From positions 1 through 36,332 of the forward strand of contig NZ_JANLCK010000020.1 in NCBI RefSeq assembly GCF_024979315.1: 36,332 nt of DNA, read 5' to 3'. This stretch comes from Herbiconiux oxytropis (lineage in GTDB: Bacteria; Actinomycetota; Actinomycetes; Actinomycetales; Microbacteriaceae). The first letter of the stretch is position 1. The number at the start of each line of letters is the position of its first letter. The position numbers and the translations under genes are program-made. The notes below the pieces were generated by a model. That model searched no databases and was not told the DNA's origin. It was given only the letters and a program-made list of their open reading frames with translations. Of this stretch, positions 498 to 18,302 are shown piece by piece.

Positions 498-510
498 GAA
501 GGAGCCCGCG

Positions 511-1362
511 ATGCCCGAACCTCGATTGCCCCTGGACCCCGTCTTTCCTGCCCCGCCGGGGCGCGAGGACTCAGTCGTGGCCTGGTGGCTCGGACAGGCG
601 GGCTTCGCCATCCGTTATCACGACGAGCTCCTGCTCATCGATCCCTACCTGAGCGACGTCCTCGCCGACAAGTACCGCGGGCGCGTCTTCCCCCACGCCC
701 GGCTGCACCCCTCTCCCGTCAATCCGTCCGACATACGAGGTCTCGGCCTGGTGCTGTGCACCCACGGGCACACGGATCACATGGACCTGGGCTCGATCCC
801 GTATCTCCAGAGCTCGAGCGATCCGCTCTTCATCGTGCCGCGGTCCGAGTCCGTGAAAGGCGTGTCCCGAGGAATCCCGGCTTCACGTCTGCTGGGTCTC
901 GACACAGGCGAGATCTTCGCCAGTGGTGGCGTCACGGTGACCGCCGTTCCCGCGGCGCACGAGCAGATCAGTCTCGACGAGCACGGGCAGAATCTGTTCC
1001 TCGGCTACGTCATCGACATCGGCGGAGTGCGCCTCTACCACTCCGGCGATTGCACCCCCTTCGACGGCCAGGAGGAGCTCATCCGCTCGCTCGACGTCGA
1101 TGTCGCACTGCTGCCCGTCAACGGCCGAGACGCGCACCGAATGGGAAACGGTGTGCCCGGCAACTTCGAGCTCGACGAGGCCGTCGCCCTGTGCCGCTCG
1201 GCAGGCGTACCCGCACTCGTCTGCCACCACTGGGGACTGTTCGAGTTCAACAGCGCCGACCCCGCCGACCTGCGCGAGAGGTTGGGCGAGGTCACCGACC
1301 TGGACTGGCGGGTGCCGGAGCTCGGCGTGCCCTTCGCCCTCGAGCGATCGGCCGCGGCATGA
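511..1362 (+). CDS. UlaG-like metallo-beta-lactamase-fold hydrolase (possible lactonase)
   Basis: This 283-aa protein of the UlaG branch of the metallo-beta-lactamase superfamily (COG2220 type) carries THGHTDH (84-90), His150, Asp180 in HSGD and His240. Together these supply a complete two-metal site. Characterised relatives include L-ascorbate-6-phosphate lactonase, so ring opening of a sugar lactone or its phosphate is plausible, but the substrate is not known. The start at 511 is supported by AAGGAG (499-504) six bases upstream; the upstream in-frame ATG at 472 falls in the promoter region. The gene overlaps the next one by ATGA (1359-1362), so the two are probably translationally coupled and controlled by the operator-bearing promoter at 454-497. 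No ascorbate PTS genes are present, which argues against a true ascorbate role. Confidence 0.85.
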   Translation: MPEPRLPLDPVFPAPPGREDSVVAWWLGQAGFAIRYHDELLLIDPYLSDVLADKYRGRVFPHARLHPSPVNPSDIRGLGLVLCTHGHTDHMDLGSIPYLQSSSDPLFIVPRSESVKGVSRGIPASRLLGLDTGEIFASGGVTVTAVPAAHEQISLDEHGQNLFLGYVIDIGGVRLYHSGDCTPFDGQEELIRSLDVDVALLPVNGRDAHRMGNGVPGNFELDEAVALCRSAGVPALVCHHWGLFEFNSADPADLRERLGEVTDLDWRVPELGVPFALERSAAA

Positions 1363-2279
1363 CCTCGACGTTCTGGTTCTTCGGGGTGACCACCGGCGGC
1401 TCGGCCATGCAGCGCATCTACCCGCTCTGGATGGAGGAGCTCGGAATCGACTCCGCCTTGAGCGGAGTGGACTTCCCACTGGATGCTCCACCGGGCGACT
1501 ACCGGGCAGCGGTACAACGAGTCAAGGACGACCCCGACTCCGTCGGCGGCCTTGTGACATCGCACAAGCTCAACGTCCTCTCCGCCGCGAGCGATCTGTT
1601 CGACGGCCTCGACGAGTCGGCGCAGCTGCTGCGCGAGGTGAGCTGTCTGCACAAGCGCGACGACCGACTGCTCGGCGCCGCCCTCGACGACCGCACGAGC
1701 TCACTCGCCCTGCAGGCGCTCACCCCGCAGGGCTTCTGGGATCGCGGTGGCGAACTCCTCCTTCTCGGGGCCGGAGGCGCCTCGATCGCCACCACGCTCG
1801 GCCTCCACCACGCCGCAGCGGCAGGGCAGCCTGTTCCCTCGCGCATCCGCGTGACCGCCCGATCCGGTCATCGGCTCGAGGAACTCGAGGCCGTGCATCG
1901 CCGGATCGACTTCTCGATCCCCGTGCTGCCGATCGTGACGGCAGACGCCGAGGAGACCGACTCGGTGGTGGCAGGCCTGCCGCCCGCGTCGATGGTCGTC
2001 AATGCGACTGGAATGGGCAAGGATCGGCCAGGATCGCCGACGACCGAGGAGGTCGAGTACCCCGTGGACTCGATCGCGTGGGACATGAACTACCGCGGCG
2101 AGCGCCCGTTCCTGAGGCAGGCCGAGCGGCGGGCCGCGGAGCGGCGGGTCACCGTCGTCGATGGGTGGGACTACTTCGTCTACTCCTGGACGCACGTCGT
2201 CAGCGTGGTGCACGACCTCGAGATCGACCCAGCCACCTTCGAGCGCCTCTCCAGGATCGCTCGATCGGTCCTGGGCTGA
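1359..2279 (+). CDS. AroE-like (shikimate dehydrogenase-like) oxidoreductase, paralog A
   Basis: This 306-aa protein has the two-domain layout of shikimate/quinate dehydrogenases. The N-terminal substrate domain carries SHKLN with Lys70 (the family's catalytic lysine) and DDRTSS with Asp111 as the likely catalytic aspartate. The Rossmann motif GAGGAS comes next, then NATGMGKDRPGSP, the counterpart of the AroE NATPLGM loop. It is longer than a housekeeping AroE (about 270-280 aa) and its signature motifs are altered. A second paralog is encoded at 10689-11633 in the same regulon. It follows the UlaG-like gene with a 4-base overlap. I infer an NAD(P)-dependent dehydrogenase acting on a polyhydroxylated substrate of this pathway rather than aromatic amino acid synthesis. 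There is no other shikimate-pathway gene nearby. Confidence 0.8.
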   Translation: MTSTFWFFGVTTGGSAMQRIYPLWMEELGIDSALSGVDFPLDAPPGDYRAAVQRVKDDPDSVGGLVTSHKLNVLSAASDLFDGLDESAQLLREVSCLHKRDDRLLGAALDDRTSSLALQALTPQGFWDRGGELLLLGAGGASIATTLGLHHAAAAGQPVPSRIRVTARSGHRLEELEAVHRRIDFSIPVLPIVTADAEETDSVVAGLPPASMVVNATGMGKDRPGSPTTEEVEYPVDSIAWDMNYRGERPFLRQAERRAAERRVTVVDGWDYFVYSWTHVVSVVHDLEIDPATFERLSRIARSVLG

Positions 2280-2285
2280 CCCTCC

Positions 2286-2318
2286 GGTCCCGGCCGAGCC
2301 CCACCCTCCGCCGGGACC
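2286..2318. terminator. Hairpin between convergent aroE-like and HAD genes
   Basis: GGTCCCGGC (286-294 of this kilobase, i.e. 2286-2294) pairs perfectly with GCCGGGACC (2310-2318) across a 15-base loop, just after the stop of the AroE-like gene and before the stop of the opposing HAD gene. It could end transcription in either direction. Confidence 0.5.
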
Positions 2319-2333
2319 TCCTCCTCAGACTCT

Positions 2334-2864
2334 TCAGACTCCGCCGTCGTAACGGTTCGAGTCGTCGTAGTACCCGCTGGGGAAGTACACGCTCGGGATA
2401 CCGAACTCCCCGTACATCTCCACGATCCTGCGGTTGTCGTCGATCGCGAGCACCGGCTGGAGGCCCCAGGTGCGCAGACGGTCGACCTCCTCGCGTTTGT
2501 AGTCCACGGCGTGGCGGGAGGAGTCGTCCTCGTGCGGAGGCCGGCAGACCAGGAGATCCCAGCGCAGGCCGTTCTCGGTCAGCCATTGCCTGGTGACCCC
2601 GGCCACGTCGTCGACCCGACCCGTCAGGATGACGATCCGCACGTCGTCGCGCATCGTGGCGGCGAGCGCGCGCCCCGCCTCGATCACGCCGTCGCCTTCC
2701 ACGCCGGCGTAGAAGCCCTTCCAGTCGGGCTCCTGGCGATGCAGGAAGTGCTGCCGGTGCAGCGCGTCGGCCAGGACGCCGTCGAGATCGAAGATGACGG
2801 CCTGCCCTCCGGCGAGGCCGCCACCGGGTACGTGCCAGTGCCCCGGCAGCGGCGTCCCGGTCAC
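2334..2864 (-). CDS. HAD-superfamily phosphatase coupled to split transketolase
   Basis: This 176-aa HAD-fold protein has motif I FDLDGVLAD (nucleophile Asp26, acid/base Asp28), motif II ILTGR (Thr80), a Lys in DYKREE and the acidic motif AIDDNR. The set is complete, so a phosphatase activity is likely. It resembles the small phosphatase domain seen in polynucleotide kinase-phosphatase-like proteins, but the neighbours point to a small phosphorylated metabolite. It starts with GTG at 2864, which overlaps the stop of the transketolase C-terminal subunit gene (GTGA, 2861-2864). It is the last gene of the three-gene minus-strand operon. It may remove phosphate from a transketolase product or clear a toxic side product; this is inference. 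Confidence 0.75.
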   Translation of the reverse strand: MTGTPLPGHWHVPGGGLAGGQAVIFDLDGVLADALHRQHFLHRQEPDWKGFYAGVEGDGVIEAGRALAATMRDDVRIVILTGRVDDVAGVTRQWLTENGLRWDLLVCRPPHEDDSSRHAVDYKREEVDRLRTWGLQPVLAIDDNRRIVEMYGEFGIPSVYFPSGYYDDSNRYDGGV

Positions 2865-3838
2865 GCGAGCGCCTCGCGGACGACGGCTGCGATGCCCCGG
2901 GCATCGAGCCGGTAATGGGCATACAGATGGGTGGGCGGCGCAATGAGACTGTATTCGTCGTGGATGCCATGTCGCACGAGCCGCGCGCCGGAGCGGCTCT
3001 CCGCCATGACCTCGGCTACGGCTGCCCCGAGGCCTCCCAGCACATTGTGCTCCTCGACGGTGAGCACCACGGAGCTACGGGCGGCCGCCGCCCGCACGAG
3101 GTCGGCGTCGAGCGGCTTGATGGTCGCCATATCGATCACGCCGATGGACAGCCCCTCCGCGGCCAGGGTCTCGGCGGCACGGAGAGCAGGGTGCACCTGC
3201 GTTCCACAGGCGATGATCGTGAGGTCGGTCCCCGTGGAATGCTCGATCCCCCGACCGAAGCGGAACTCGGCGTCATCGGCGTACACCTGTGGATCCCGCC
3301 CTCGGCTGGTTCGGAAGTAGATCGGCTCCGGCCAAGTCGCCGAGGCGCGGATCGCCGCCTGCAACTGCGGGCCGTCCGCCGGCGAGACCACAGTGAGGCC
3401 GGCGATGGCCCTCATGACCGAGATGTCCTCGGTGGCGTGGTGGCTCGTACCGTAGAAGCCGAGCGAGATCCCGGTGTGGTGGCCGATGAGACGCACGGGC
3501 AGCTTGGTGTACGCGACGTCCATCCGGATCTGTTCACAGCAGAGCAGAGCGAGGAACGACGCGAATGTCGCCACGAAGGGCGTGGCACCCGTGGTGGCCA
3601 GCCCTGCCGCAGCCGAGACCATGTTCTGCTCGGAGATGCCGAACTGGACGAAGCGATCGGGATGCGCGCGCGCGAACTTCACGAGCCCGTTGGAGTACTG
3701 CAGGTCGGCCGTGCCTGCGACGACGGGGACGCCCGCCTCGACGAGCTCGATCAACCCGTCGGAGAGATGGTCGAGGCCTGGGTTCTGCGCGTTGAGCCCG
3801 CGATACTGCCAGGAGCCCTCTGCCAGTGCGGAGCTCAC
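2861..3838 (-). CDS. Split transketolase, C-terminal (pyrimidine-binding) subunit
   Basis: This 325-aa protein corresponds to the second half of transketolase. FGISEQN contains Glu70, the conserved glutamate that activates thiamine diphosphate. TSHH (131-134) replaces the usual PTHQ, and a C-terminal transketolase domain with EEHNVLGG follows. The stretch that normally reads GEDGPTH reads GFYGTSH, so the aspartate known as Asp469 in E. coli TktA is Tyr129 here; other split transketolases also vary at this place. The GTG start at 3838 overlaps the stop of the N-terminal subunit gene (GTGA), which supports coupled synthesis of a two-subunit enzyme. A split pair next to a kinase and dehydrogenases resembles the AptAB arrangement in apiose catabolism, but substrate identity is not shown. 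Confidence 0.9.
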   Translation of the reverse strand: MSSALAEGSWQYRGLNAQNPGLDHLSDGLIELVEAGVPVVAGTADLQYSNGLVKFARAHPDRFVQFGISEQNMVSAAAGLATTGATPFVATFASFLALLCCEQIRMDVAYTKLPVRLIGHHTGISLGFYGTSHHATEDISVMRAIAGLTVVSPADGPQLQAAIRASATWPEPIYFRTSRGRDPQVYADDAEFRFGRGIEHSTGTDLTIIACGTQVHPALRAAETLAAEGLSIGVIDMATIKPLDADLVRAAAARSSVVLTVEEHNVLGGLGAAVAEVMAESRSGARLVRHGIHDEYSLIAPPTHLYAHYRLDARGIAAVVREALA

Positions 3839-4704
3839 GATCGGGCCCCGCGGATCTCGGCGATCGCGGCGTCGGCGTCGGCCGGCACGAGGTAACCCAG
3901 ATGCCACCCCGGCTCCTCCTCCATGTAGGCGACCCCCTTGCCCTTCATCGTGCGGGCGATGACGCAACTGGGAGCAGCCTCGGCGGGACGCTCGGCGAGC
4001 AGAAGGAGGAGGTCACGCACGGCGACTGCGTCGTGGCCGTCGACCTCGTGGACCTCCCAGCCGAAGGCGCGCCACTTGTCGCCCAACGGTTCGATGCCGA
4101 TCACGTCGTCCACGCTGCCGTCGAGCTGGAAGCCGTTGCGGTCGACGATCGCGACGAGTCTGCCCAGCCGGTGATGCGCACCCGCGAGTGCGGCCTCCCA
4201 GACCTGCCCCTCCTGCATCTCGCCGTCGCCGAGCATGACGAACACGGAGAAGTCCCGAGCGGAGAGACGGCCGCCGAGGGCCATACCGAGACCGTTGGAG
4301 AGTGCGTGGCCGATGGATCCGGAACTGAAGTCGATTCCGGGCACCTTCGTCATATCGGGGTGATCGCCGAGCGGGCTGCCGAGCCGCGTGTAGCTGTCGA
4401 GCACCTCCTGAGAGAAGTAGCCGAGGTCAGCCAGAATCGGGAACAGACCGACGGCGGCGTGGCCTTTCCCCATCAGGAACCGATCCCGATCCGGCCAGTC
4501 CGGCCGCGACGCATCCGTGCGCATCACCCCGTAGTAGAGAGCGGCGAAGATCTCGGCGGCCGAGAAGACCGAGCTGTAGTGGCCGACCTTGGCCAGCTCG
4601 ATGAGCCTGATGGCCTCGGTGCGCACGAACTCGGCGCGGTCGGCGAGGAGGGTGTCGTCGGCCCACGGCCGATCAGGGGGCAGAAGCGTCGTTGCTGAAG
4701 GCAT
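3835..4704 (-). CDS. Split transketolase, N-terminal (thiamine diphosphate-binding) subunit
   Basis: This 289-aa protein is the first half of transketolase. It shows GHY with His42, KGHAAVG with His82, GDHPD with His115, His133, and the thiamine diphosphate/magnesium motif GDGEMQEG beginning at Gly159 with Asn190 downstream. All typical histidines of the N-terminal half are present. The ATG at 4704 has AGGA directly against it, which is too close for a standard ribosome binding site, and a candidate -10 lies only seven bases upstream, so a leaderless transcript is possible. The gene is the first of the operon with the C-terminal subunit and the HAD phosphatase. It diverges from the SDR gene at 4780 across a region with two operator-like palindromes. 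Confidence 0.9.
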   Translation of the reverse strand: MPSATTLLPPDRPWADDTLLADRAEFVRTEAIRLIELAKVGHYSSVFSAAEIFAALYYGVMRTDASRPDWPDRDRFLMGKGHAAVGLFPILADLGYFSQEVLDSYTRLGSPLGDHPDMTKVPGIDFSSGSIGHALSNGLGMALGGRLSARDFSVFVMLGDGEMQEGQVWEAALAGAHHRLGRLVAIVDRNGFQLDGSVDDVIGIEPLGDKWRAFGWEVHEVDGHDAVAVRDLLLLLAERPAEAAPSCVIARTMKGKGVAYMEEEPGWHLGYLVPADADAAIAEIRGARS

Positions 4705-4710
4705 TTCCTC

Positions 4711-4761
4711 ATCGTGATTGAAATTTCACCCGCCGTCAAGCTAGCGTCGGAAGAAATTTCT
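4711..4761. promoter_or_regulatory. Divergent promoter region with two GAAATTTC palindromes
   Basis: TGAAATTTCA (4719-4728) and AGAAATTTCT (4752-4761) are perfect 10-bp palindromes whose centres are 33 bp apart, about three helical turns. For the minus strand, TTGACG (4739-4734) and CACGAT (4716-4711) with a 17-base spacer could serve the transketolase operon. For the plus strand, TTGAAA (4718-4723) and TAGCGT (4742-4747) are weaker candidates for the SDR gene. The first palindrome lies within or against the core promoter elements in both directions, so it should act as a repressor site for both units. Confidence 0.6.
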
Positions 4762-4779
4762 ATCTCGACAGGAGAACTC

Positions 4780-5490
4780 ATGAGCACCTCTTCCCCGACC
4801 CCGGTCGCCGTTGTCACCGGAGGCGGCACCGGCATCGGTCGCGCCGTCGGCGAACTGCTCCACACCCGAGGCTGGACGGTGCGCGCCGTCGGGCTCGATG
4901 TCGATACCGATGCTCCTTCGGCGCTCGCGGAAGGCTTCCGGCACTGCGACGTGAGCGATGGCGACGCCCTTCGCGATGCCCTCGCCGACCTCGGCCCGGT
5001 GTCGGCACTCGTGACCTGCGCCGCCGTGCTCCGGGATGACGAATGGGTGCCCGAGAGCTTCGACAGGGTGCTGGGCATCAATGCGACGGGCGTGCTCGCC
5101 GTGGCCGAGATCCTGCGGTCGCGACTCGCCGAGGCACGGGGCTCCATCGTCAACTTCGCGTCCATGTGGAGCTTCTTCGGTTCACCGAACGCTCCCGCGT
5201 ACGCCGCATCCAAAGGCGCCGTCGTAGCCCTGACCCGCTCCCAGGCCGTGGCGTACGCCGCCGAGGGCATCCGCGCGAACGCGATCGCGCCCGGCTGGAT
5301 CGCCACCCCCATGTCGCGCCGCGCCCGCGACGACGAGGACCGCTACGCCCGCATCACCGAGCGCATCCCGCTCGGCCGCTGGGGTGCGGCGGAGGACGTG
5401 GCCCGCTCGATCGGCTTCCTCGTGTCGGACGATGCCGCCTACGTCACCGGCGCGGTGCTCACCGTCGACGGCGGCTACTCGATCGCCTAG
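4780..5490 (+). CDS. Short-chain dehydrogenase/reductase (SDR) 1
   Basis: This 236-aa classical SDR has the cofactor motif TGGGTGIG near residue 14, catalytic Ser in FASMWS, the catalytic pair in YAASK and the closing region VDGGYSIA. The ATG at 4780 is preceded by AGGAG (4770-4774) with five bases of spacing. In-frame codons further upstream lie in the operator region. It probably oxidises or reduces a sugar, polyol or sugar acid with NAD(P), as part of the island pathway. The stop codon overlaps the stop of the opposing dehydrogenase gene in the four bases CTAG (5487-5490). It diverges from the split transketolase operon and shares its control region. Confidence 0.85.
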   Translation: MSTSSPTPVAVVTGGGTGIGRAVGELLHTRGWTVRAVGLDVDTDAPSALAEGFRHCDVSDGDALRDALADLGPVSALVTCAAVLRDDEWVPESFDRVLGINATGVLAVAEILRSRLAEARGSIVNFASMWSFFGSPNAPAYAASKGAVVALTRSQAVAYAAEGIRANAIAPGWIATPMSRRARDDEDRYARITERIPLGRWGAAEDVARSIGFLVSDDAAYVTGAVLTVDGGYSIA

Positions 5491-6578
5491 AACACCACGA
5501 GGGTGCGAGCGCCCACGCCGGCCACCAGATCGGCGATCCCGTCGTTGATCTCGTCGAGCGCGATCCGCCGGCCTGCCAGCGCCTCGAGCTCGAGCCGGCC
5601 GGCGAGGTGGTCGGCGACGAGGGCCGGCAGGTCGCGCTGCGGCTCAAGGGAGCCCGCCCGCACGCCGTGCACGCCCTTGCCCGAGTGCAGGTGGTCGGCG
5701 GGCAGCGGGATCGTGGCGCCGTCACCGAAGACGCCGACCGCCCAGACGGAGCCGCCGCGGGCGGTCGCGTCGAGCGCGAGTCCGATCAGCGCCGGCGCCC
5801 CCACCGCCTCAAAGGAGTGGTCGGCCCCTCCGTCGGTCAGATCGCGCACGAGTGCGGCCGGATCGGCGACGAGCCCCGTGTCGACGACGTGCGTGGCGCC
5901 GAACCGCTCCGAGGCGAGCGCCAGCCGCTCCGGACTGCGGTCGAGCGCGATGACGGTGGCGGCGCCGGCCGCCGCCGCTCCCTGGCAGACGTTCAGCCCC
6001 ACTCCCCCCGCACCGATCACCACGACGTGGTCGCCGGGACCGACCCCGGCCACCTTCCGCGCCGAACCCACCCCTGTCGCGACGGCGCAGCCGAGCATGG
6101 CCGCCAGGTCGAGCGGCATGCGCTCGTCGATCACGGTCACCGCGTTGCGGTGGAGCACCATCTCCTCGGCGAAACCCGCGATATTGGTCCACTGATGCAC
6201 CTCGGAACCGGCCCGGGAGAGCCTCGGCTCCTCGCCCGCTCCGCGCATCGTCGCCTGGCGATCCTGGCACATCGCCGGCCGACCCGATCGGCACATCCGG
6301 CACCGGCCGCAGAACACCACGAAGCAGGCCACCACGTGGTCTCCGACGGCGACATCCTTCACGGAGGAACCCACTTCACTGACGACCCCGGAGGCCTCGT
6401 GCCCGAGCACGACCGGGAGCGGCCTGGCCACCCGGCCGTCGATCACGTGCAGGTCGGAGTGGCAGATGCCGACCGCCGCGGTGGCGACGCGGACCTCGTT
6501 GGCCTGAAGCGCATCCGGAGTGTCGATGGTCTCGATCGTGAGCGGTTCGTGCAGGGCGTTCAGGACGGCTGCGCGCAT
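5487..6578 (-). CDS. Zinc-dependent medium-chain alcohol dehydrogenase (MDR 1)
   Basis: This 363-aa zinc-dependent dehydrogenase has catalytic-zinc ligands Cys39 and His60/Glu61 (GHEA). The full structural-zinc set is Cys90, Cys93, Cys96 and Cys104, and the coenzyme motif is GAGGVG. The overall pattern is that of class III-like alcohol dehydrogenases. GAGGAG lies eight bases before the ATG at 6578; earlier in-frame codons reach into the promoter. It stands alone on the minus strand and is divergent from the kinase gene at 6702. A looser version of the island operator lies in its leader at 6596-6608. It is likely to oxidise a primary or secondary alcohol of the imported compound or an aldehyde derived from it; the substrate is unknown. 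Confidence 0.85.
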   Translation of the reverse strand: MRAAVLNALHEPLTIETIDTPDALQANEVRVATAAVGICHSDLHVIDGRVARPLPVVLGHEASGVVSEVGSSVKDVAVGDHVVACFVVFCGRCRMCRSGRPAMCQDRQATMRGAGEEPRLSRAGSEVHQWTNIAGFAEEMVLHRNAVTVIDERMPLDLAAMLGCAVATGVGSARKVAGVGPGDHVVVIGAGGVGLNVCQGAAAAGAATVIALDRSPERLALASERFGATHVVDTGLVADPAALVRDLTDGGADHSFEAVGAPALIGLALDATARGGSVWAVGVFGDGATIPLPADHLHSGKGVHGVRAGSLEPQRDLPALVADHLAGRLELEALAGRRIALDEINDGIADLVAGVGARTLVVF

Positions 6579-6595
6579 GGGACGGGCTCCTCTTC

Positions 6596-6651
6596 GGTAA
6601 TTTTTTCCTTGACACTGTTGCAATCAGAATAAACTTCGGTCACTCTAGTGA
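6596..6651. promoter_or_regulatory. Divergent promoter region of MDR 1 and the FGGY kinase
   Basis: This AT-rich gap has a consensus -35 TTGACA (6609-6614) reading toward the kinase, but the best -10, TAAACT (6630-6635), gives a short 15-base spacer. GGTAATTTTTTCC (6596-6608) resembles, on the other strand, GGAAAATGATTACC at 18303-18316 and may be a weak site for the same regulator. TCACT-CT-AGTGA (6640-6651) is a separate dyad near the expected start of the kinase transcript. Confidence 0.4.
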
Positions 6652-6701
6652 GGGGCGTCACGGCCCGTCAACGAAGACGACGAAGTGGATGCGATCCGAC
6701 G

Positions 6702-8201
<1,500 letters not shown>

Positions 8202-8235
8202 GCAGAGGGCCCTGAGCTCCCCCATCGAGACCGGT

Positions 8236-8255
8236 CGGCTCAGCCGCGCGAGCCG
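8236..8255. terminator. Possible hairpin between convergent kinase and RpiR genes
   Basis: CGGCTC (8236-8241) pairs with GAGCCG (8250-8255) around an 8-base loop, overlapping the stop codon of the RpiR gene and 35 bases after the kinase stop. The stem is short, so this is a tentative terminator. Confidence 0.3.
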
Positions 8256-10064: not shown

Positions 10065-10071
10065 CCGGGCC

Positions 10072-10665
10072 TCAGTTGCCCCAGCGCGGGTTGTCGAGGA
10101 GCACGGGCGCGCCGTCCCGCTCGACGACGATCTTGCGGAAGCCCTTGGTCTCGATGGTGCCGTAGTCGTGTCCGGCGTCGCCGGGGAAGGCGAAGAAGGT
10201 GATCAGCGGCTCGTCGGAGGAGGTGTTCACGCTGCGGTGCGCGTAACGGCCCGGAACGTAGACCGAACGGCCCGGCCGGAACTCCTCGACCTGCACGTCG
10301 CCCTCCGGACTCTCCATGAGCATGAGGCCCTGGCCGGAGAGACAGAAGTAGATCTCGGCGGACTCGAGCCGGGTGTGGAAGTGGCCCTTGGTCATGAAGT
10401 ACTCATCTCCCACCTTGCCGGGGTAGGTGATGCTCGTTCCGTATGCGACCTCGGTCTCGAGCGACGGCACGTCGAAGTCGTAGAACTCGTAACTCAGCAC
10501 GTCGTCGCGCGCGACCTGCGCGTCGAACGCCGCGGTGTCGGAGTACATGCCGGCCATCGCCGACAGCGGCCGTTTGAGCGAAGCGCGATCCTCGGTGAGC
10601 CCGGTGGTCAGGTCGAATGCCGTGGCGACGGCGCGAGTGGTGGGGATGGTGGACGATGCGGTCAT
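10072..10665 (-). CDS. Cupin-type glucose-6-phosphate isomerase-like protein
   Basis: This 197-aa single-cupin protein of the archaeal-type phosphoglucose isomerase family has GHFHTRLESAEIY supplying His95, His97 and Glu104, and YAHRS supplying His143. The spacing of these ligands (+2, +9, +48) matches the metal site of the Pyrococcus furiosus enzyme (His88, His90, Glu97, His136). It should catalyse aldose-ketose isomerisation of a phosphorylated sugar, though the true substrate may differ from glucose-6-phosphate. It follows AroE-like paralog B after 23 bases in the importer operon. The ribosome binding site before ATG 10665 is weak (GAAAG-like). A housekeeping isomerase is expected elsewhere, so this copy is probably pathway-specific. 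Confidence 0.85.
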   Translation of the reverse strand: MTASSTIPTTRAVATAFDLTTGLTEDRASLKRPLSAMAGMYSDTAAFDAQVARDDVLSYEFYDFDVPSLETEVAYGTSITYPGKVGDEYFMTKGHFHTRLESAEIYFCLSGQGLMLMESPEGDVQVEEFRPGRSVYVPGRYAHRSVNTSSDEPLITFFAFPGDAGHDYGTIETKGFRKIVVERDGAPVLLDNPRWGN

Positions 10666-10688
10666 GGCGGTTCTTTCGTGTGGGCCCG

Positions 10689-11633: not shown

Positions 11634-12685
11634 CGGGCGGCCTCCTCGAAGACGATGACCGACTTCATGCCCTGCCCTGATCGGGAGGCCTCCATCGCCT
11701 GGGAGATGTCGTCGATGGCGAATCGGGAGGTGATGATCGGGGACAGATCGATCCCGCCGTCGGCCACGATGTCGATCACGTCGCCGTAGTCGGCCACGCT
11801 CGAGCCCGTGGTGCCTGTGAGGATCTGCTCCCGGTAGTGCAGCGAGTTCACGTCGATCTGGGGGCGGGCCTGGTCGCCGAGCCCGGAGAAGACGTTGATC
11901 CTGCCGAGCCGACCGGCCATATCTGTGGCGGAAGCGATCACCTCCGACTTGGAGACGCAGGTGATCACCACGTCCGCTCCCCGCCCTCCGGTCAGCCGCA
12001 TCACCTCGTCGAGCAGGTCGGTCTCGGAGACGTTGATGAGCTCGTCTGCCCCCATCCGCCCGGCGATGTCGAGCCGGGGCTGGCGCGTGTTGGCCACGAT
12101 CACCTGCCGGGCACCCGCCCGCTTCGCCAGCGCCGTGTGCAGGCAGCCGATGGGCCCGGCCCCGATGATGAGCACGGAGTCGGCGGCCGAGACGCCGATC
12201 GCGCGCTGACCGTGCAGGCAGCACGACATCGGCTCGAGGATCGCCGCGACCTCATCGGTCAGCGCGTCGGGCACGTGGAAGACGTTCCCTCGCTCGAGGG
12301 CGATCGCCGGCACGAGCAGATACTCGGCGAAGCCGCCGTCGATGGTGATGCCGAACGCTTCGTAGTCGGGGCAGAGCTGATTGAGCCCGCGGGCGCACAT
12401 CGCGCAGCGCCCGCAGCCGATGTTCGGCGCCACGCTGATGCGGTCGCCCACCACGAGGCCGACGACGTCGACACCGGCCTCGACGACCTCACCGGTCAGC
12501 TCGTGACCGAGCACGCGCGATGTCCCCTCGGGGATGCGGAAATGGCCGTGCTTCGTGATGCGCAGGTCGGTTCCGCATACGCTCGCCGCCCGCACCTTCA
12601 CGAGCAGATCACCGGGGCCCGGCACAGGAACGGGCACGTCAGTGACCTCGACGACGCCGGGCCGGCGGAAGACGGCCGCCCTCAT
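11630..12685 (-). CDS. Zinc-dependent medium-chain dehydrogenase, sorbitol dehydrogenase-like (MDR 2)
   Basis: This 351-aa zinc-dependent dehydrogenase of the sorbitol/threonine dehydrogenase branch has catalytic-zinc ligands Cys37 and His61/Glu62, with Glu in LEPMSCCLHG. The structural-zinc cysteines 91, 94, 97 and 105 are all present, and the coenzyme motif is GAGPIG. Such enzymes oxidise polyols or sugar alcohols to ketoses with NAD. Its start overlaps the stop of MDR 3 by ATGA and its stop overlaps the start of AroE-like B in the same way, so the three genes are tightly coupled. The substrate is presumably the imported compound or an early intermediate. Confidence 0.85.
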   Translation of the reverse strand: MRAAVFRRPGVVEVTDVPVPVPGPGDLLVKVRAASVCGTDLRITKHGHFRIPEGTSRVLGHELTGEVVEAGVDVVGLVVGDRISVAPNIGCGRCAMCARGLNQLCPDYEAFGITIDGGFAEYLLVPAIALERGNVFHVPDALTDEVAAILEPMSCCLHGQRAIGVSAADSVLIIGAGPIGCLHTALAKRAGARQVIVANTRQPRLDIAGRMGADELINVSETDLLDEVMRLTGGRGADVVITCVSKSEVIASATDMAGRLGRINVFSGLGDQARPQIDVNSLHYREQILTGTTGSSVADYGDVIDIVADGGIDLSPIITSRFAIDDISQAMEASRSGQGMKSVIVFEEAAR

Positions 12686-13818
12686 CGGGGGCTCCCCACC
12701 GGGGCTGCGAGACCGGCGTCTGCGGCGAGAGCGGCCGACAGCGACGACGACAGGGCCGACTCCCGTTCTGCGGCGGCCTCGTGGGAGACCGCGAAGACGG
12801 TCTTGTTGGACCAGCCCGCGCGGTCGGCGAGGCGCGCGAACACCATGGGGGCATCCTCCAGAGACTCCACGTGGCTGACCAGATCGTCGACCGAGAGCGT
12901 GCGACCGAGGCACGCCACGACCATCTCCCAGTCGTTCGAGGTGCGGGGTGTGATCACGGCGTTCCAGGTGCCACGCAGAACGAGCTCCCGGCGGAGGATC
13001 CGGGAGACGGTCTCCTTGGGCAGCTCCACATCGGTGCTCAGGTCCCCGAGCAGGATGACCTGACCTCGCGGCGCTGCAGCATGCACCGCCTGCAGGAGGG
13101 TTGCACCCAGACCGCTCGCTTCGACGGTGATGTCGACTCCCCTGCCACCGGTCGCTGCTCGGGCCAGCTCGTCGCTCGTAGCCTGACCGGCGTCGAGCGT
13201 CTCGAAACCCAGATGCTCCGCGACGGCTCGCTTGCGCTCGTCGATGTCGGAGACGAGCACGCGCACGACACCCAGGATGCGCAACCATTGCGCGGCGAAC
13301 AGTCCGATCGGACCTGCGCCGATGACGAGGGCCGAGGCATTGGTGCCGATCTCGGCCTTCCGCACGGCGTGCAGGGCCACCCCGGCCGGTTCCACCATCG
13401 CACCGGCGATGAGCGACGTGCCTTCGGGCAGCTTGATGAGGTTGCGCTCGGGAACCCGCAACCGCTCCTCGAGCCCACCGTCGCGGCGGGAGCCGAAGTA
13501 GTCGTAGTTCTCGGCGAGGGTGAACTCACCGATCTCGGTCATCGGATCGGCCGGGTCGGGGACGCAGGGGAATATCGCCACGCGATCGCCTGCTCGCAGC
13601 GCGCCGCTCGGTGAATCCTCCTCGAGCGTGCCCGACATCTCGTGCCCGAGCACCAACGGGAATCCGTACCCCTTCCCGACCCCGAACCGAAGCACGTCCG
13701 AACCGCACACACCCACCGCGCCGATTCGCACGAGCACCGAGTCGATACCGACCGGCTCAGGCTCGGGCACGTCGGTGACGACGAGGTCGCGCACCCCTCG
13801 CAGAACCGCAGCTCTCAT
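12682..13818 (-). CDS. Medium-chain dehydrogenase, galactitol-1-phosphate dehydrogenase-like (MDR 3)
   Basis: This 378-aa dehydrogenase resembles the GatD branch: Cys38 in GVCGSD, His59/Glu60 in GHEMSG, NYDYFGSRRDGG, VEPAGVALH and the coenzyme motif GAGPIG. The catalytic zinc site is therefore kept. The lobe that normally holds four structural-zinc cysteines has only Cys85, and the rest reads Pro/Asp-rich, so structural zinc is probably absent. A low-complexity Ala/Ser tail of about 30 residues follows the usual family end. It sits between SDR 2 (three-base gap) and MDR 2 (4-base overlap). It may act on a phosphorylated or free polyol. Confidence 0.8.
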   Translation of the reverse strand: MRAAVLRGVRDLVVTDVPEPEPVGIDSVLVRIGAVGVCGSDVLRFGVGKGYGFPLVLGHEMSGTLEEDSPSGALRAGDRVAIFPCVPDPADPMTEIGEFTLAENYDYFGSRRDGGLEERLRVPERNLIKLPEGTSLIAGAMVEPAGVALHAVRKAEIGTNASALVIGAGPIGLFAAQWLRILGVVRVLVSDIDERKRAVAEHLGFETLDAGQATSDELARAATGGRGVDITVEASGLGATLLQAVHAAAPRGQVILLGDLSTDVELPKETVSRILRRELVLRGTWNAVITPRTSNDWEMVVACLGRTLSVDDLVSHVESLEDAPMVFARLADRAGWSNKTVFAVSHEAAAERESALSSSLSAALAADAGLAAPVGSPR

Positions 13819-13821
13819 CGC

Positions 13822-14658
13822 TCAGACCTCCATGCCGTACCGGAGCACCTTGTGGGTGGGGTACAGGGAGAACGTGGGGATCGTGACGTCCGGGGTCCGG
13901 GTCGCGATGTAGAGAGCGGCCTCGGCGACGTTCGAGACGTCGATGCAGGTGGCGGAGAGCCCCTCCGCGATCTCCTTCTCATCGAGCCAGCCGTCGGTGT
14001 ATGCCGGCAGATCGCCGTCGTACAGCCCTTTGTCGATGATCTCGGTCATCGGGGTCCGCACATGTGAAGGGTTGAGCACCGTCACGCCGATGTTCTTCTC
14101 CATGCCCTCGATCAGGATGTTCTTGGAGAGGCCGAGCATGCCGTGCTTGGATGCGCGATACGGGCTGTGGCCGGGCCCGGAGGCGACCTTCGTCGAAGAC
14201 GACCCCATGTTGATGATGCGGCCACCCCAGGACTGCTGCTCCATCACGAGGAAGGCCTCGCGACAGCACAGGAACACGCCCGTGAGGTTCGGCTCGATCG
14301 TCTTGTACCACTCCTCCAACGTGACCTGGGTGATGGGAGGCGCGAGGGAGTCCCGGCCCGCACTGTTCACCACGAGGTCGATACGACCCCAGCGCGCGAC
14401 GGTCTCCGCGAAGAAGGCTCGCACCTGCTCTTCGTCGACGACGGTAGCCGTGATCGCCAGGATGTCGCCGCCACGCTCGGTGATGTCGGCGGCCACCTCA
14501 TCCAGGCGTGGGGTGTCGATGTCGATCATCGCGACCTTCGCTCCGTTGGCGGCGTAGATGCGCGCCACGGCCTCGCCGATGCCGGAGGCGGCTCCGGTGA
14601 TGAGGGCCACTCTGCCCTCGAGTGCGGTGCCGGGTGTCGGCAGGTAGTCAGGCACCAT
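13822..14658 (-). CDS. Short-chain dehydrogenase/reductase (SDR) 2
   Basis: This 278-aa classical SDR has the cofactor motif TGAASGIG near residue 21, NSAG, catalytic Ser in MGSSS and the catalytic pair in YRASKHG. It has a C-terminal extension of about 25 residues compared with short SDRs and ends without the common VDGG segment. The ATG at 14658 is preceded on the coding strand by AAAGGAG with seven bases of spacing, and the gene overlaps the aldolase gene end by 11 bases. It is likely to be an NAD(P)-dependent oxidoreductase for a sugar acid or polyol in the island pathway. The exact reaction is unknown. Confidence 0.85.
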   Translation of the reverse strand: MVPDYLPTPGTALEGRVALITGAASGIGEAVARIYAANGAKVAMIDIDTPRLDEVAADITERGGDILAITATVVDEEQVRAFFAETVARWGRIDLVVNSAGRDSLAPPITQVTLEEWYKTIEPNLTGVFLCCREAFLVMEQQSWGGRIINMGSSSTKVASGPGHSPYRASKHGMLGLSKNILIEGMEKNIGVTVLNPSHVRTPMTEIIDKGLYDGDLPAYTDGWLDEKEIAEGLSATCIDVSNVAEAALYIATRTPDVTIPTFSLYPTHKVLRYGMEV

Positions 14659-15349
14659 GATGGTGCTCCTTTCCAGCTGTTCCAGCTGTCTCTCTGATGG
14701 TTCGGACCTCGTCTGCGGCTGCTTCCGCACGGCGGGTGATCTCGGTGAAGTCCCCCGCCTCGAGCAGAGCGCGCGGAGCGATCCAGGTCCCGCCGCACGC
14801 CAGAACGGCGGGACGGGCGAGGTAGCGGGGCAGGTCGGCGGCGGTGATGCCGCCCGTGGGCATGAAACGCGCGTGCGGATAGGGACCGGCCAGGGCATCG
14901 ATCAACGCGACGCCCCCGATCACCTCAGCCGGGAAGAGCTTCACGACCTCGGCTCCCAGACGGAGCGCGCCGTCGAGTTCGGACGCCGTGGCGGCTCCCG
15001 GGATGAATTCCAATCCTCGTTCCCGAGCGCGAGCGAGGACCGATTCGCTGGTGCCCGGCGCCACCCCGAAGTGCGCGCCGGCGTCAGCGGCCGCGTCGAC
15101 GTCCTCCGGACGGAGAAGGGTTCCGGCTCCCACCACGAACCCGGGGCGCAGTTCCCTGACGCGAGCGATGGCCGCTGCCGCCGCGGGCGACCGGAACGTC
15201 ACCTCCATGCCGGTGAGACCGCCTTCGAGGAGGGCATCGGCGAGCCTCAGCCCCTCGTCGGCGGAGGCGACGACGACCACCGGCACGATGCCCTCGTCGC
15301 GGAGGTGTGCAGTGACGGTGCGCTCGCTCAGGGGGGAGACGGCGCTCAT
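14648..15349 (-). CDS. eda: KDPG/KHG-type 2-keto-3-deoxy acid aldolase
   Basis: This 233-aa class I aldolase of the 2-dehydro-3-deoxyphosphogluconate / 4-hydroxy-2-oxoglutarate family has the Glu49 motif MEVTFRS, GAGT (75-77 region), the Schiff-base Lys137 in KLFPAE and the phosphate-binding PTGGI loop. The catalytic set is complete. It cleaves 2-keto-3-deoxy sugar acid phosphates, or a related keto acid, to pyruvate and an aldehyde. Its start overlaps the stop of the importer ATPase gene by ATGA. Its presence says that at least one branch of the pathway passes through a 2-keto-3-deoxy acid, alongside the kinase/transketolase branch. Confidence 0.85.
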   Translation of the reverse strand: MSAVSPLSERTVTAHLRDEGIVPVVVVASADEGLRLADALLEGGLTGMEVTFRSPAAAAAIARVRELRPGFVVGAGTLLRPEDVDAAADAGAHFGVAPGTSESVLARARERGLEFIPGAATASELDGALRLGAEVVKLFPAEVIGGVALIDALAGPYPHARFMPTGGITAADLPRYLARPAVLACGGTWIAPRALLEAGDFTEITRRAEAAADEVRTIRETAGTAGKEHHHGA

Positions 15350-16167
15350 GACGCCCTCTCCAGCCCGAGCTTCTCCGGCGTGGTGGCGCCGACCATCATC
15401 GCCACGGCGTCGGCCATGTCGACCTGTGAGGTCTCCACGAGCGCGATCCGGCGGCCGAGCCTCTGGATGTGCACGCGATCGGCGACCTCGAAGATCTGCG
15501 GCATGTTGTGGCTGATCAGGATGACGGGGATGCCTCGCGAGTTGATGTCTTTGATGAGCTTCACGACGCGTCCCGACTCCTTCACGCCGAGCGCCGCGGT
15601 GGGCTCGTCGAGGATGACGACCTTCGAGCCGAAGGCCGCGGCTCGCGCCACGGCGACACCCTGGCGCTGTCCTCCCGAGAGCGTCTCGACGGACTGGCCG
15701 ACGTTCTGGAGGGTCTGAAGCCCCAGCTCGGCCATGGCGCCGAGCGCCTCCTGTCGCATCCGCTTCTTGTCGAGCATCCGGAACACGCTGCCGGCGATGC
15801 CTGCTCGGCGCAGTTCGCGGCCCAGGAAGATGTTCGTCGCAACGTCGAGCGCCGGTGACACGGCGAGGCTCTGGAAGACGGTCTCGATGCCGAGGCGACG
15901 GGCCTCGACCGGCGACTTCAACGCGGTCGGCTCTCCGCCCACGAGCAGTTCACCCCCGTCGGGCTGCACGGCTCCGCTGAGGCACTGGATGAGAGAGGAC
16001 TTGCCCGCACCGTTGTCGCCGATCACGGCGAGCACCTCGCCCTGCCTGATCTCGAAGTCGGTCTCGTCGAGGGCGACGACGTGGCCGTAGCGCTTCACCA
16101 GTCTGCGGCCCTCGAGCACGAGCTCGTGCGAGCGGGGAACGGAAGGAGCAGTCGATTCTGTGGTCAT
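15346..16167 (-). CDS. frcA: Sugar ABC transporter ATP-binding protein, FrcA-like
   Basis: This 273-aa single-domain ATPase has Walker A GDNGAGKSS, signature LSGGQRQG and Walker B VVILDEPTAAL, followed by the switch histidine in ISHN. Many sugar importers of this class use a double-length ATPase. A single domain is the FrcA arrangement, which matches the FrcB-like binding protein and single permease upstream. It powers uptake of a monosaccharide or polyol. The gene follows the permease gene by one base and overlaps the aldolase gene. The gene name reflects similarity, not a proven fructose specificity. Confidence 0.88.
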   Translation of the reverse strand: MTTESTAPSVPRSHELVLEGRRLVKRYGHVVALDETDFEIRQGEVLAVIGDNGAGKSSLIQCLSGAVQPDGGELLVGGEPTALKSPVEARRLGIETVFQSLAVSPALDVATNIFLGRELRRAGIAGSVFRMLDKKRMRQEALGAMAELGLQTLQNVGQSVETLSGGQRQGVAVARAAAFGSKVVILDEPTAALGVKESGRVVKLIKDINSRGIPVILISHNMPQIFEVADRVHIQRLGRRIALVETSQVDMADAVAMMVGATTPEKLGLERAS

Positions 16168-16168
16168 G

Positions 16169-17242
16169 TCAGCGTCCGATCTTGCGCAGGCGCTGGTCGA
16201 CGGCGACCGCGCCGATGATGAGGATTCCGATGGTGAACTCCTGCCAGAGGTTGTCGAAGCCGGCCAGCGACAGGCCGCTCGAGAAGACGCCGACGATCAC
16301 GGCACCGAGGAGCGTGCCCATGATGCGGCCGCGACCGCCGAACAGGCTCGTGCCGCCGATCACGACGGCTGTGATGGAGGCGAGGTTGTAGGAGGCGCCC
16401 GCCGTGGGCGAGATGGAGCCGATGCGACCGATCAGGAGCCACGCGGTGACGCCGATGATGAGGCCGGCGACGATGTACACGGACATCAGCACGCGGTTGA
16501 CCCGGATGCCGGACAAGCGGGCGGCCTCGAGATTGTCGCCGACGGCGTAGATGTGCGTGCCCCAGGCGGTGCTGCGCAGGATGTAGGCGAAGAGCACGAA
16601 CATCAGGATCGTGAGCACCTGACCGTAGGTGAACGTCGTGCCGAAGACCTGGAAGCCTGTGCCGAGCCAGGTCAGCAGGGCCGGCACCTCGGCGTACGGA
16701 ACGCTCTCGCCGTCGGAGATGAAGATGTTCAGCGCGTAGAAGATGCTGAGGGTGCCGAGGGTGGCGATGAACGGCGGGATGTTCAGCTTCGTGACGATCA
16801 ACCCGTTGATGGCACCGCAGATCACGCCTACGAGGACACCCAGCAGCAGAGCGAACTCGACCGGGAGACCCAGGGTCACCGCGAGCTTGCCCATCACCAC
16901 CTGGGCGAGAAGCATCACGGCGGCCACGGAGAGGTCGATGCCGGCGGTCAGGATGATGAGAGTCTGGGCGATGCCGAGCAGCGCGATCACCTGCACCTGC
17001 TGAAGGATGAGGGAGAAGTTCTGCAGGGTGCCGAAGTTCGGAGAGACGATCGAGAAGACGATCAGAGCGATGACGAGCACCGCCAGGGGCCCGATCAGGG
17101 GCCTGGACAGCATCCGCCGCTCCACCCATTGCAGCGGGGAGAGACGGGCGCCGCCATCGATCTCGACGAGGCCTCTCGGCGCCTTGGGGGCGGGGAGGCT
17201 CGTGCGCTCGCCGTCGGGGAGGTCGGTCGCACTTCTGTTCAC
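16169..17242 (-). CDS. frcC: Sugar ABC transporter permease, FrcC-like
   Basis: This 357-aa permease of the ribose/xylose/fructose importer class has many hydrophobic segments from about residue 45. It carries the family motif TAGIDLSVAAVM, then NIPPFIATLGT and VIGGTSLFGGRG near the end. The GTG at 17242 leaves a five-base gap after the binding-protein gene; a GTG at 17260 is an alternative start that would overlap that gene. It presumably forms a homodimeric channel with the ATPase encoded downstream. It belongs to the eleven-gene operon that ends with the RpiR regulator. Confidence 0.87.
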   Translation of the reverse strand: MNRSATDLPDGERTSLPAPKAPRGLVEIDGGARLSPLQWVERRMLSRPLIGPLAVLVIALIVFSIVSPNFGTLQNFSLILQQVQVIALLGIAQTLIILTAGIDLSVAAVMLLAQVVMGKLAVTLGLPVEFALLLGVLVGVICGAINGLIVTKLNIPPFIATLGTLSIFYALNIFISDGESVPYAEVPALLTWLGTGFQVFGTTFTYGQVLTILMFVLFAYILRSTAWGTHIYAVGDNLEAARLSGIRVNRVLMSVYIVAGLIIGVTAWLLIGRIGSISPTAGASYNLASITAVVIGGTSLFGGRGRIMGTLLGAVIVGVFSSGLSLAGFDNLWQEFTIGILIIGAVAVDQRLRKIGR

Positions 17243-17247
17243 GGCCC

Positions 17248-18285
17248 TCAGCCCCAGCACTGCTCGAGGCCGAAGGCGGTGTCCTCCGACTCGACGCCGT
17301 CCTGCGGCTGATCGGTGACGAGCGTGACTCCCGTGTTGGTGAAGTCGAGGCCGTCGCTGTTCGCCGGCTTCGATCCGTCATCGAGGTACGCCTTGACCGC
17401 CTGCAGCGCCTGCTTCGACATCTCGAGCGGGAACTGCATCGACGTCGCCGCGATGATGCCCTCCTGCACGTTCATGACCCCGGGGCATCCGCCGTCGACC
17501 GAGACGATCGTGATCTGACCCTCGAGGCCCGCAGCCGTCACGGCCTGGTAGGCGCCGGCCGCCGTCGGCTCGTTGATCGTGTAGACGAGGTTGATGGTCG
17601 GGTCCTTCTGGAGCAGCTTCTCCATGCCCGTGCGGCCACCGGCCTCGTTGGCGTCGGTGACCTCGTGCCCGATCAGGCGCGGGTCGCTCTCATCCCACAT
17701 CTTGGTGGGGTCGCCCGTGTCGATGCCGAAGCCCTCGAGGAAGCCCTGGTTGCGGGCGACGTCGACGGGGATCTGGTCGGTGCTGAGGTCGAGGGTGGCG
17801 ATGCGGGGCTCGGTGTCGCCGAGTGCGGCCTTCGCCCACTCCCCCACCAGCTGACCGGCGAGCTGGTTGTCGGTGGCGAAGGTCCCGTCGATCCCCGATT
17901 CGGAACCGAGGGGGGAATCCATCGCGAACACGACGATGCCCGCAGCCTGCGCCTTCTTGACGGCCGGGATGATGCCGTCACCGGCCGGGGTGACGAGGAT
18001 CGCCTTCGCCCCTTGGGCCGTGAAGTTCTCGATGGCCTTGATCTGGGAGTCGACGTCGCTCTGCCCGTCGCCGGAGGCGACCTGCAGGTTGAAGCCGAGG
18101 TTCTTCGCCTCGTCCTCGGCGCCTTCCGTCATCTTGACGTAGAAGGGGTTGTCCTGCGTCTTGATGACGAGACCGACAAGGGGTTCGCCGTTCGATGATG
18201 CCTGGGTGCCACAGCCGCTGAGGCCGAGGAGCACCATTGCTCCTGCGGCGGTCGCAGCCACGATGCTGCGAGTTCGTGCGTGCAT
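17248..18285 (-). CDS. frcB: Sugar-binding lipoprotein of ABC importer, FrcB-like
   Basis: This 345-aa periplasmic-binding-protein-type lipoprotein has a signal peptide with lipobox LSGC (Cys25). VIKTQDNPFYVKMTEGA follows, then AKAILVTPAGDG and VSVDGGCPGV, all in the style of FrcB from the fructose/mannose/ribose importer. It would capture the island substrate outside the membrane and deliver it to the permease. AGAGGA lies just before ATG 18285. It is the first gene of the long operon and is transcribed from the promoter at 18326-18353, which carries an operator-like palindrome in its spacer. The family suggests a monosaccharide or polyol, and specificity cannot be read from sequence. Confidence 0.88.
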   Translation of the reverse strand: MHARTRSIVAATAAGAMVLLGLSGCGTQASSNGEPLVGLVIKTQDNPFYVKMTEGAEDEAKNLGFNLQVASGDGQSDVDSQIKAIENFTAQGAKAILVTPAGDGIIPAVKKAQAAGIVVFAMDSPLGSESGIDGTFATDNQLAGQLVGEWAKAALGDTEPRIATLDLSTDQIPVDVARNQGFLEGFGIDTGDPTKMWDESDPRLIGHEVTDANEAGGRTGMEKLLQKDPTINLVYTINEPTAAGAYQAVTAAGLEGQITIVSVDGGCPGVMNVQEGIIAATSMQFPLEMSKQALQAVKAYLDDGSKPANSDGLDFTNTGVTLVTDQPQDGVESEDTAFGLEQCWG

Positions 18286-18302
18286 GATTTCCTCTCGGGG
18301 AT

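Follow-up and report, generated by a model that had tools for sequence, protein, structure and literature searches.

The window analysed here is a 36,332-base stretch of Herbiconiux oxytropis DNA (contig NZ_JANLCK010000020.1), and the block under study occupies positions 511–18504, where gene calling and profile searches of the encoded proteins identify 19 protein genes. All of the enzyme families listed in an initial annotation of this DNA are found within it. We propose, with a probability of roughly 35%, that the block is an inserted island whose core encodes a widespread and apparently undescribed catabolic pathway for a polyol or for a ketose made from it. More generally, we regard the block as a sugar or polyol catabolic module that contains two enzyme subfamilies of probably new function. 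The core consists of a cupin isomerase of the phosphoglucose isomerase (PGI) type, an AroE-like dehydrogenase, a PGDH-like D-2-hydroxyacid dehydrogenase (2-HADH), a UlaG-like hydrolase, a 2-keto-3-deoxy-6-phosphogluconate (KDPG)-type aldolase, an FGGY kinase and an RpiR-family regulator.

A core gene set that recurs across phyla

Relatives of the block were gathered by scanning genome contigs with the AroE-like family, which gave at least 580 matches. The best 80 by similarity to AroE2, the core copy of the AroE-like dehydrogenase in the window, were fetched as loci, and a set ranked in this way is biased toward the AroE2 family. Open reading frames (ORFs) in the loci were called with a simple ORF caller and clustered using blastp, and the 19 window proteins were also mapped onto the loci. 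Partner counts cover the 66 loci longer than 15 kb, the 14 shorter ones being excluded; many of the 66 come from related rhizobia, and a partner is scored as present on either a clustering or a tblastn match, weak matches included (for example, a 2-HADH at 38% identity in L016).

Counted anywhere in the locus, a cupin accompanies the AroE-like gene in 65 of the 66 loci, a kinase in 59, a 2-HADH in 57, a UlaG-like hydrolase in 53, an RpiR regulator in 51 and a KDPG-type aldolase in 45. Within 3 kb of the AroE-like gene, and using tblastn alone, the cupin is found in 62, the 2-HADH in 51, the UlaG-like hydrolase in 47 and the aldolase in 32 (n = 66). The loci span four phyla, namely Actinomycetota, Pseudomonadota (Alphaproteobacteria and Betaproteobacteria), Planctomycetota and Spirochaetota, and on a Nitrospiraceae contig (L067) an AroE-like gene is found to which no partners could be mapped. 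In an even sampling of phyla this gene turns up seldom, in 8 of 296 genomes, H. oxytropis included, and in some of these as fragments only. Three loci (L021, L028 and L054) are collinear on one strand, in the order importer, UlaG, aldolase, SDR_b, MDR2, MDR1, GlpK, AroE, cupin, 2-HADH and RpiR (dehydrogenases named after their window counterparts, described below). Annotated plasmid copies carry cupin, Eda, AroE-like, PGDH-like, metallo-beta-lactamase (MBL) and regulator genes consecutively; one such copy has this core row divergent from a row of binding protein, ATPase, permease, FGGY, HAD, SDR, glycerol-dehydrogenase-like and SDR genes, and one annotated copy is without the Eda gene.

The same association is seen closer to home. 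Among 16 congener genomes, of which one is split into about 1,110 contigs with 88% completeness, the AroE-like gene is present in 10, the PF06560 cupin is present in the same 10, and both are absent from the other 6 (counts uncorrected for phylogeny). The initial annotation had put forward a catabolic pathway and proposed to look for co-occurrence around the AroE-like pair; the genes do form a conserved set, as the same partners recur across phyla and congeners, and the contrary outcome, that the genes are not conserved together, did not hold. The core is old and widespread, and in some Actinomycetota an add-on travels with it.

The side genes of the divergent loci, among them transporters, PEP-hydrolase-like, MaoC and DegT genes and others, provide no name for the substrate. 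A PEP-hydrolase-like domain adjoins the module in planctomycetes (L026:7835–9676 and L057:12538–13386), in one case fused to a sigma-54 activator.

Enzymes and importer of the module

The two AroE-like dehydrogenases, AroE2 (10689–11633, minus strand) and AroE1 (1359–2279, plus strand, its start overlapping the UlaG stop by 4 bases), are 49% identical to each other. Neither has a Pfam match, and both score well below the shikimate dehydrogenase cut-offs (AroE1, 46.4 against 413 bits and 35.6 against 200.2; AroE2, 33.8 against 413 bits and 27.7 against 200.2). The shikimate dehydrogenase fold is clear when a model of AroE2 is compared with known structures, and K84 and D124, which we take to be the equivalents of the catalytic K65 and D102 of the E. 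coli enzyme after mapping known motifs by hand, are invariant across 35 AroE-like sequences. The shikimate-binding residues of the E. coli enzyme are Ser14, Asn59, Asn86 and Gln244; opposite these a hand alignment places Gly27, Leu79, Ser109 and Gly285 of AroE2, in a register that derives from the same motifs and is provisional at Ser14 and at a one-residue gap before K84. If the register is right, the shikimate-binding residues are changed. Leu79 and Ser109 are invariant in the AroE-like alignment and Gly285 is nearly so. The pair is probably not shikimate dehydrogenase. That it belongs to no nameable pathway, as first annotated, still stands insofar as we found no description of the module in open-access full text (subscription papers lie outside that coverage, and long result lists were covered in part); the available part of PMC9007349 mentions neither shikimate dehydrogenase nor UlaG, cupin, xylitol or transketolase. 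What does not stand is any special status of the window, as the core is widespread and the AroE-like pair is not peculiar to this DNA.

The kinase (6648–8201, plus strand, true start about 6708) passes the glycerol kinase equivalog cut-off of TIGR01311 (660.3 against 590.35). The signature residues of GlpK are given as Arg83, Glu84, Tyr135, Asp245 and Phe270 in the available part of PMC3245297. The window kinase keeps the first four of these and has Ser at the Phe270 position. In all 15 module GlpK-type kinases, the window copy included, the Phe270 position is taken by Ser, Thr or Ala, and the exact motif of Arg83-Glu84 occurs in 15, that of Tyr135 in 14 and that of Asp245 in 11; Phe270 is kept in both close GlpK paralogues of the H. 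oxytropis genome. The earlier description of this enzyme as GlpK-like is therefore right as far as the glycerol kinase model goes and misses the replaced signature residue, a feature of all 15 module kinases of the GlpK type. Most other loci have a distant FGGY kinase instead (clusters in 48 and 7 loci), and three examples that were scanned come closest to xylulokinase, under its cut-off.

The cupin (10072–10665, minus strand) matches PF06560, the archaeal phosphoglucose isomerase family, with 111.3 bits against a cut-off of 20.7. Among proteins of solved structure it comes closest to archaeal phosphoglucose isomerases (E 1.8e-52; residues 16–195 aligned with 1j3p), and at least 95% of 63 sequences share the metal site H95, H97, E104 and H143. 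The UlaG-like hydrolase (511–1362, plus strand) matches PF12706 with 94.1 bits and has an MBL superfamily domain with an HxHxDH site; at least 95% of the 49 aligned sequences share the metal-site residues H85, H87, D89, H90, H150, D180 and H239. It falls below the cut-off for L-ascorbate-6-phosphate lactonase, NF008688 (31.3 against 306). One locus (L031:12467–13795) has a low-molecular-weight phosphatase domain fused to the UlaG-like hydrolase, and an annotated MBL protein in a Shinella module is similar in length to this fusion.

The 2-HADH (9123–10064, minus strand) contains R232, E261 and H279, which we take to be its catalytic Arg, Glu and His and which at least 95% of the 56 aligned sequences share. 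GlcD-like genes are found in 4 of the 9 loci without a 2-HADH and in 2 of the 57 with one (P 0.002, uncorrected for relatedness), and this exchange of GlcD-like for 2-HADH suggests that the step oxidises a D-2-hydroxyacid. The GlcD-like gene, identified on L084, lies near the module in L066, L083, L084 and L085, loci that lack the 2-HADH; in L102 a FAD-binding oxidoreductase adjoins the regulator although a 2-HADH is present.

The aldolase (14648–15349, minus strand) exceeds the TIGR01182 cut-off (224.8 against 156.05). The catalytic Glu, Arg and Lys of Eda are kept in 37 of 37 module aldolases, as are three glycines of the phosphate-binding motif, the fourth being kept in 35 of 37. It is the sole PF01081 match in the H. 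oxytropis genome, where no second match is found, and Edd has no match over cut-off in that genome (one match of 243.4 bits against 708.25). With no Edd match over cut-off and no second KDPG aldolase, the module aldolase would not be fed by an ordinary Entner-Doudoroff pathway. In the module on pSymB of Sinorhizobium meliloti Ak57, which includes Eda as well, the regulator and FGGY kinase genes flank a DeoC/LacD-family aldolase gene (L097:15624–16370).

The sugar ABC importer is encoded by genes for an ATPase (15346–16167), a permease (16169–17260) and an RbsB/FrcB-type sugar-binding protein (17248–18504, true start probably 18285), all on the minus strand. The binding protein of one rhizobial-type module (L063) is 66% identical to 4ry9, whose ligand is probably D-talitol. 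The window binding protein belongs to another cluster of the same superfamily, so the substrate of the window importer may differ.

Gene order, borders of the probable island and operator-like sites

A line of minus-strand genes runs from 18504 to 8240, in which the importer and the aldolase are followed by SDR_b (13822–14649), an SDR-family dehydrogenase with 69–76% identity to proteins of other Actinomycetota and Alphaproteobacteria, by the zinc MDR-family dehydrogenases MDR2 (12682–13818; GatD-like, under cut-off) and MDR1 (11630–12685; Tdh/IolM-like, under both cut-offs), and then by AroE2, the cupin, the 2-HADH and the RpiR-family regulator (8240–9145), which has helix-turn-helix and SIS domains by profile match. 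The remaining genes are arranged around divergent promoters. The GlpK-type kinase faces MDR3, a third zinc MDR-family dehydrogenase (5487–6623, minus strand, true start about 6575), and SDR_a (4714–5490, plus strand; homology from residue 31, true start about 4800) faces a split transketolase and a HAD protein, with UlaG and AroE1 further left. The transketolase comprises a thiamine diphosphate-binding N-terminal half (3835–4704) and a half with the pyrimidine-binding and C-terminal parts (2861–3967, true start probably near 3840–3890); like the HAD-family phosphatase-like protein (2334–2864), both are on the minus strand.

The block lies between two copies of a 140-bp direct repeat that are 95% identical, one at 243–382, near the left insertion edge, and the other at 18491–18630. 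A congener genome without the AroE-like and cupin genes (G303) contains a locus (L134) in which window 212–410 corresponds to 8290–8090 and window 18494–19045 to 8256–7699, so that both flanks join at one repeat copy. Window 18418–18496 also matches L134 close to this point, at 8607–8526, which makes the edges inexact, and nothing in L134 corresponds to about 411–18417. Insertion of the block at this site is the simpler reading, compared with its loss in G303 with one repeat kept. Near the left border, a 30-bp sequence at window 186–215 is found with 100% identity at four other sites of the H. oxytropis genome and at two in G303, and is perhaps a small interspersed repeat.

The promoters of the module have an operator-like palindrome, GAAATTTC, in common. 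Its four copies in the window all lie within three module promoters: upstream of UlaG/AroE1 (460–467), at 4720–4727 and 4753–4760, and upstream of the importer operon (18335–18342). The word is also present at the matching promoters of L015, L017, L021, L054, L136 and L137 and of the transketolase genes of Microbacterium and Agromyces; it occurs anywhere in 32 of the 80 loci, and L018, L019, L020, L023 and L028 have none. It was chosen by eye and then counted, so that a shuffle count overstates its significance and its recurrence weighs more. An ungapped 18-mer search of the four promoter regions recovered the flanking repeat and not the operator.

Right of the module, about 19092–36167 is possibly a second catabolic cluster, with matches to MarR- and FCD-type proteins, an alpha/beta hydrolase, BLUF, an aldehyde dehydrogenase, an iron alcohol dehydrogenase, an SDR, an HpcH/HpaI aldolase, BKACE, DUF6282, IclR, an ABC importer with binding protein, and a cyclase.

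An add-on in Actinomycetota

The add-on, which we see only in Actinomycetota, is made up of the second AroE/UlaG pair, the split transketolase, the HAD protein, SDR_a and MDR3, and it has an identical order in the window, L136 and L137. Two AroE copies are found in 4 of the 16 congeners, and a close split transketolase (86–92% identity) in exactly those four. Across the 14 actinobacterial genomes behind the fetched loci, the N-terminal transketolase half is present at 59–92% identity in 6 (one of these, L014, apparently being the same genome as congener G305), and 8 have a distant match (at most 40%) or none. The arrangement varies outside the genus. In Microbacterium TPD7012 the window order of GlpK, MDR3, SDR_a, the two transketolase halves, HAD, AroE1 and UlaG is repeated. 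Agromyces tardus shares GlpK, MDR3, the transketolase halves and HAD, and its AroE1 and UlaG are found across the importer. The two halves of Streptomyces iranensis are about 2 kb past the importer, and those of L145 are on a separate contig. Elsewhere in the H. oxytropis genome, N-half-like matches of 39–40% identity at C29:114374–115120 and C9:32928–33626 (ORFs of 310 and 281 aa) are perhaps further split transketolases.

The link to apiose catabolism that was first drawn from the split transketolase is kept in part: the split transketolase is present, and since it belongs to the add-on, apiose-type chemistry is not central to the module.

Discussion

The core enzymes can be arranged into a route that resembles the Entner-Doudoroff pathway, with no dehydratase in the module. 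We infer the reaction of each enzyme, the order of the steps and the substrate from protein family, conserved residues and gene association. The substrate would enter by the FrcBCA-type importer, and the SDR and MDR polyol dehydrogenases together with the FGGY kinase, its glycerol pocket perhaps opened by the change of Phe270 to Ser, Thr or Ala, would oxidise and phosphorylate it to a ketose phosphate. The PGI-type cupin would turn this into an aldose phosphate, and the AroE-like enzyme would oxidise the cyclic aldose phosphate to a lactone, a step that we assign to it because its relatives act on ring hydroxyls. The UlaG-like enzyme would then open the lactone to a phospho-aldonate, the PGDH-like enzyme, or the GlcD-like FAD enzyme in some lineages, would oxidise the 2-hydroxy acid to a 2-keto acid, and the KDPG-type aldolase would release a triose phosphate together with pyruvate if C3 is deoxy or hydroxypyruvate if C3 carries a hydroxyl. 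Hydroxypyruvate is a two-carbon donor for transketolase, and with a normal substrate it may serve the add-on enzyme in this way; in some Actinomycetota the add-on could extend the core route or provide a second outlet. Of the three substrate classes named in the initial annotation (polyol, cyclitol or branched sugar), the polyol is weakly favoured over the other two.

A number of points weigh against this route. An ordinary hexitol would bring it to a 2-keto-3-hydroxy acid, and KDPG aldolases handle such acids poorly; a 3-deoxy substrate would fit the chemistry, but we know of no common natural 3-deoxypolyol. The aldolase is missing from 21 of the 66 loci. In the stretches of Microbacterium TPD7012 that were read (L016 and L142), core and add-on occur with no KDPG aldolase match and with a 2-HADH-like protein at only 38% identity, so the last two steps may be replaceable, perhaps by transketolase. 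Recurrent phosphatases have no place in the scheme, namely a HAD cluster in 17 of the 80 loci, the low-molecular-weight phosphatase–UlaG fusion and an inositol-monophosphatase-like protein. Of the sugar-active proteins related to the AroE-like enzyme, the closest one functions as a reductase. Finally, the absence of a dehydratase holds for the module only, as five MR_MLE matches lie elsewhere in the H. oxytropis genome and this family includes sugar-acid dehydratases.

A more specific form of the proposal, which we consider unlikely as it stands, is that the module is a complete, mobile and dehydratase-free counterpart of the Entner-Doudoroff pathway, present in at least four phyla, for a deoxy-ketose or its polyol, with an enzyme of the shikimate dehydrogenase fold acting as sugar phosphate dehydrogenase. 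A ketose-6-phosphate would pass through the aldose-6-phosphate, the lactone, a 3-deoxy-aldonate and a 2-keto-3-deoxy acid to pyruvate and triose phosphate, and candidate substrates would include 3-deoxyfructose, which forms as sugars age, and deoxy-cyclitols.

Other explanations of the gene set have to be weighed against the polyol route. It is tentatively possible that two outlets or pathways share the island, a conserved core and an add-on that either deals with another sugar, possibly a branched one as apiose is, or replaces the last part of the core route with a cleavage by transketolase. Restriction of the close split transketolase to the four congeners with two AroE copies argues for such a division, as do the location of the transketolase and its partners alongside the module in Microbacterium and Agromyces, the occurrence of the core alone in other members, and the presence of the add-on without an aldolase match in the Microbacterium TPD7012 stretches; yet the GAAATTTC word is common to add-on and core, and the add-on genes adjoin the only kinase of the window and have no importer or kinase of their own. 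We find it rather unlikely that a polyol is instead oxidised twice to a diketose, with the AroE-like enzyme acting before phosphorylation as an NADPH reductase like 5-ketofructose reductase and setting the stereochemistry, and the 2-HADH and aldolase acting on later acids. This would accommodate the reductase relative noted above, but it leaves without a role both the lactonase and the PGI-type cupin, the most constant partner (65 of 66 loci), and fold alone is not predictive, a Clostridium homologue of shikimate dehydrogenase being inactive on 5-ketofructose according to the available part of PMC7954740.

A cyclitol substrate is decidedly unlikely. Here, enzymes like IolG and IolM would produce a cyclic diketone, the UlaG-like hydrolase would break a ring C–C bond, and AroE and 2-HADH would shift the keto group ahead of aldol cleavage. 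From a deoxy-cyclitol, quercitol for instance, the product would be a 2-keto-3-deoxy acid. Hydrolysis of a ring C–C bond is reportedly the reaction of Thermotoga IolN, cyclohexane polyols are handled by the shikimate dehydrogenase fold, MDR1 resembles IolM (222 bits), IolG-like genes lie near AroE in 5 of the 66 loci (cluster identified from L072), and L022 has an IolO/psicose-epimerase-like gene. Against this, the cut-offs are missed (222.5 against 450 for MDR1 with IolM, NF041097, and 262.6 against 355 for IolG), the PGI-type cupin and FGGY kinase have no role, and no IolG-like gene is among the families found in the window. It is hardly credible that chance has placed an ordinary dehydrogenase of shikimate or quinate in the cluster: the AroE-like proteins share the fold and the catalytic Lys and Asp of shikimate dehydrogenase, but they score far under every listed cut-off for it, the presence or absence of the gene agrees with that of the cupin in all 16 congeners, and the Asn, Gln and first Ser positions for shikimate binding are replaced in the hand alignment.

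Whatever the details of the polyol route, a constant enzyme set across phyla marks a nutrient for many soil, rhizosphere and aquatic bacteria that seemingly has had no name so far. If the proposal is correct, two subfamilies are misnamed in databases, as "shikimate dehydrogenase" and as "glycerol kinase GlpK"; the former label is attached in 8 of 15 plasmid records with an AroE-like relative. A sugar dehydrogenase of the shikimate dehydrogenase fold and an Entner-Doudoroff-like route that needs no dehydratase would then each be new chemistry for known folds.

Several known systems share parts of the module. The 5-ketofructose reductase of Gluconobacter (PDB 7cok/7col) resembles AroE2 in using the shikimate dehydrogenase fold on a sugar; however, it is only 17–18% identical to the AroE-like enzyme. 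We know of no such reductase in an operon of this kind. D-apiose catabolism (AptAB, AplK) shares the split transketolase, an FGGY kinase and dehydrogenases with the block, whereas here the split transketolase is in the actinobacterial add-on and the kinase is of the GlpK type; to our knowledge, an AroE-like enzyme, a cupin PGI, a 2-HADH and a KDPG aldolase are not part of that pathway. The D-altritol and galactitol pathways of Agrobacterium (Wichelecki, 2015) have in common with the module a hexitol-type ABC importer and an MDR-family dehydrogenase, and reportedly use a PF00294 kinase and a PF08013 epimerase, neither of which is among the families found for the module genes. The myo-inositol pathway of Thermotoga, said to run through IolG, IolM, IolN and IolO, shares an IolM-like MDR with the module, and IolG-like and IolO-like genes with its relatives, but the cut-offs are missed and the module has an FGGY kinase, a cupin PGI and a KDPG aldolase in addition. 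The Entner-Doudoroff pathway (Zwf, Pgl, Edd, Eda) likewise has a KDPG-type aldolase at its end, and its Zwf and Pgl correspond in kind to the proposed aldose phosphate dehydrogenase and lactonase; the module differs in drawing on the AroE-like and UlaG-like families for these steps, and in having a 2-hydroxyacid dehydrogenase at the place of the dehydratase.

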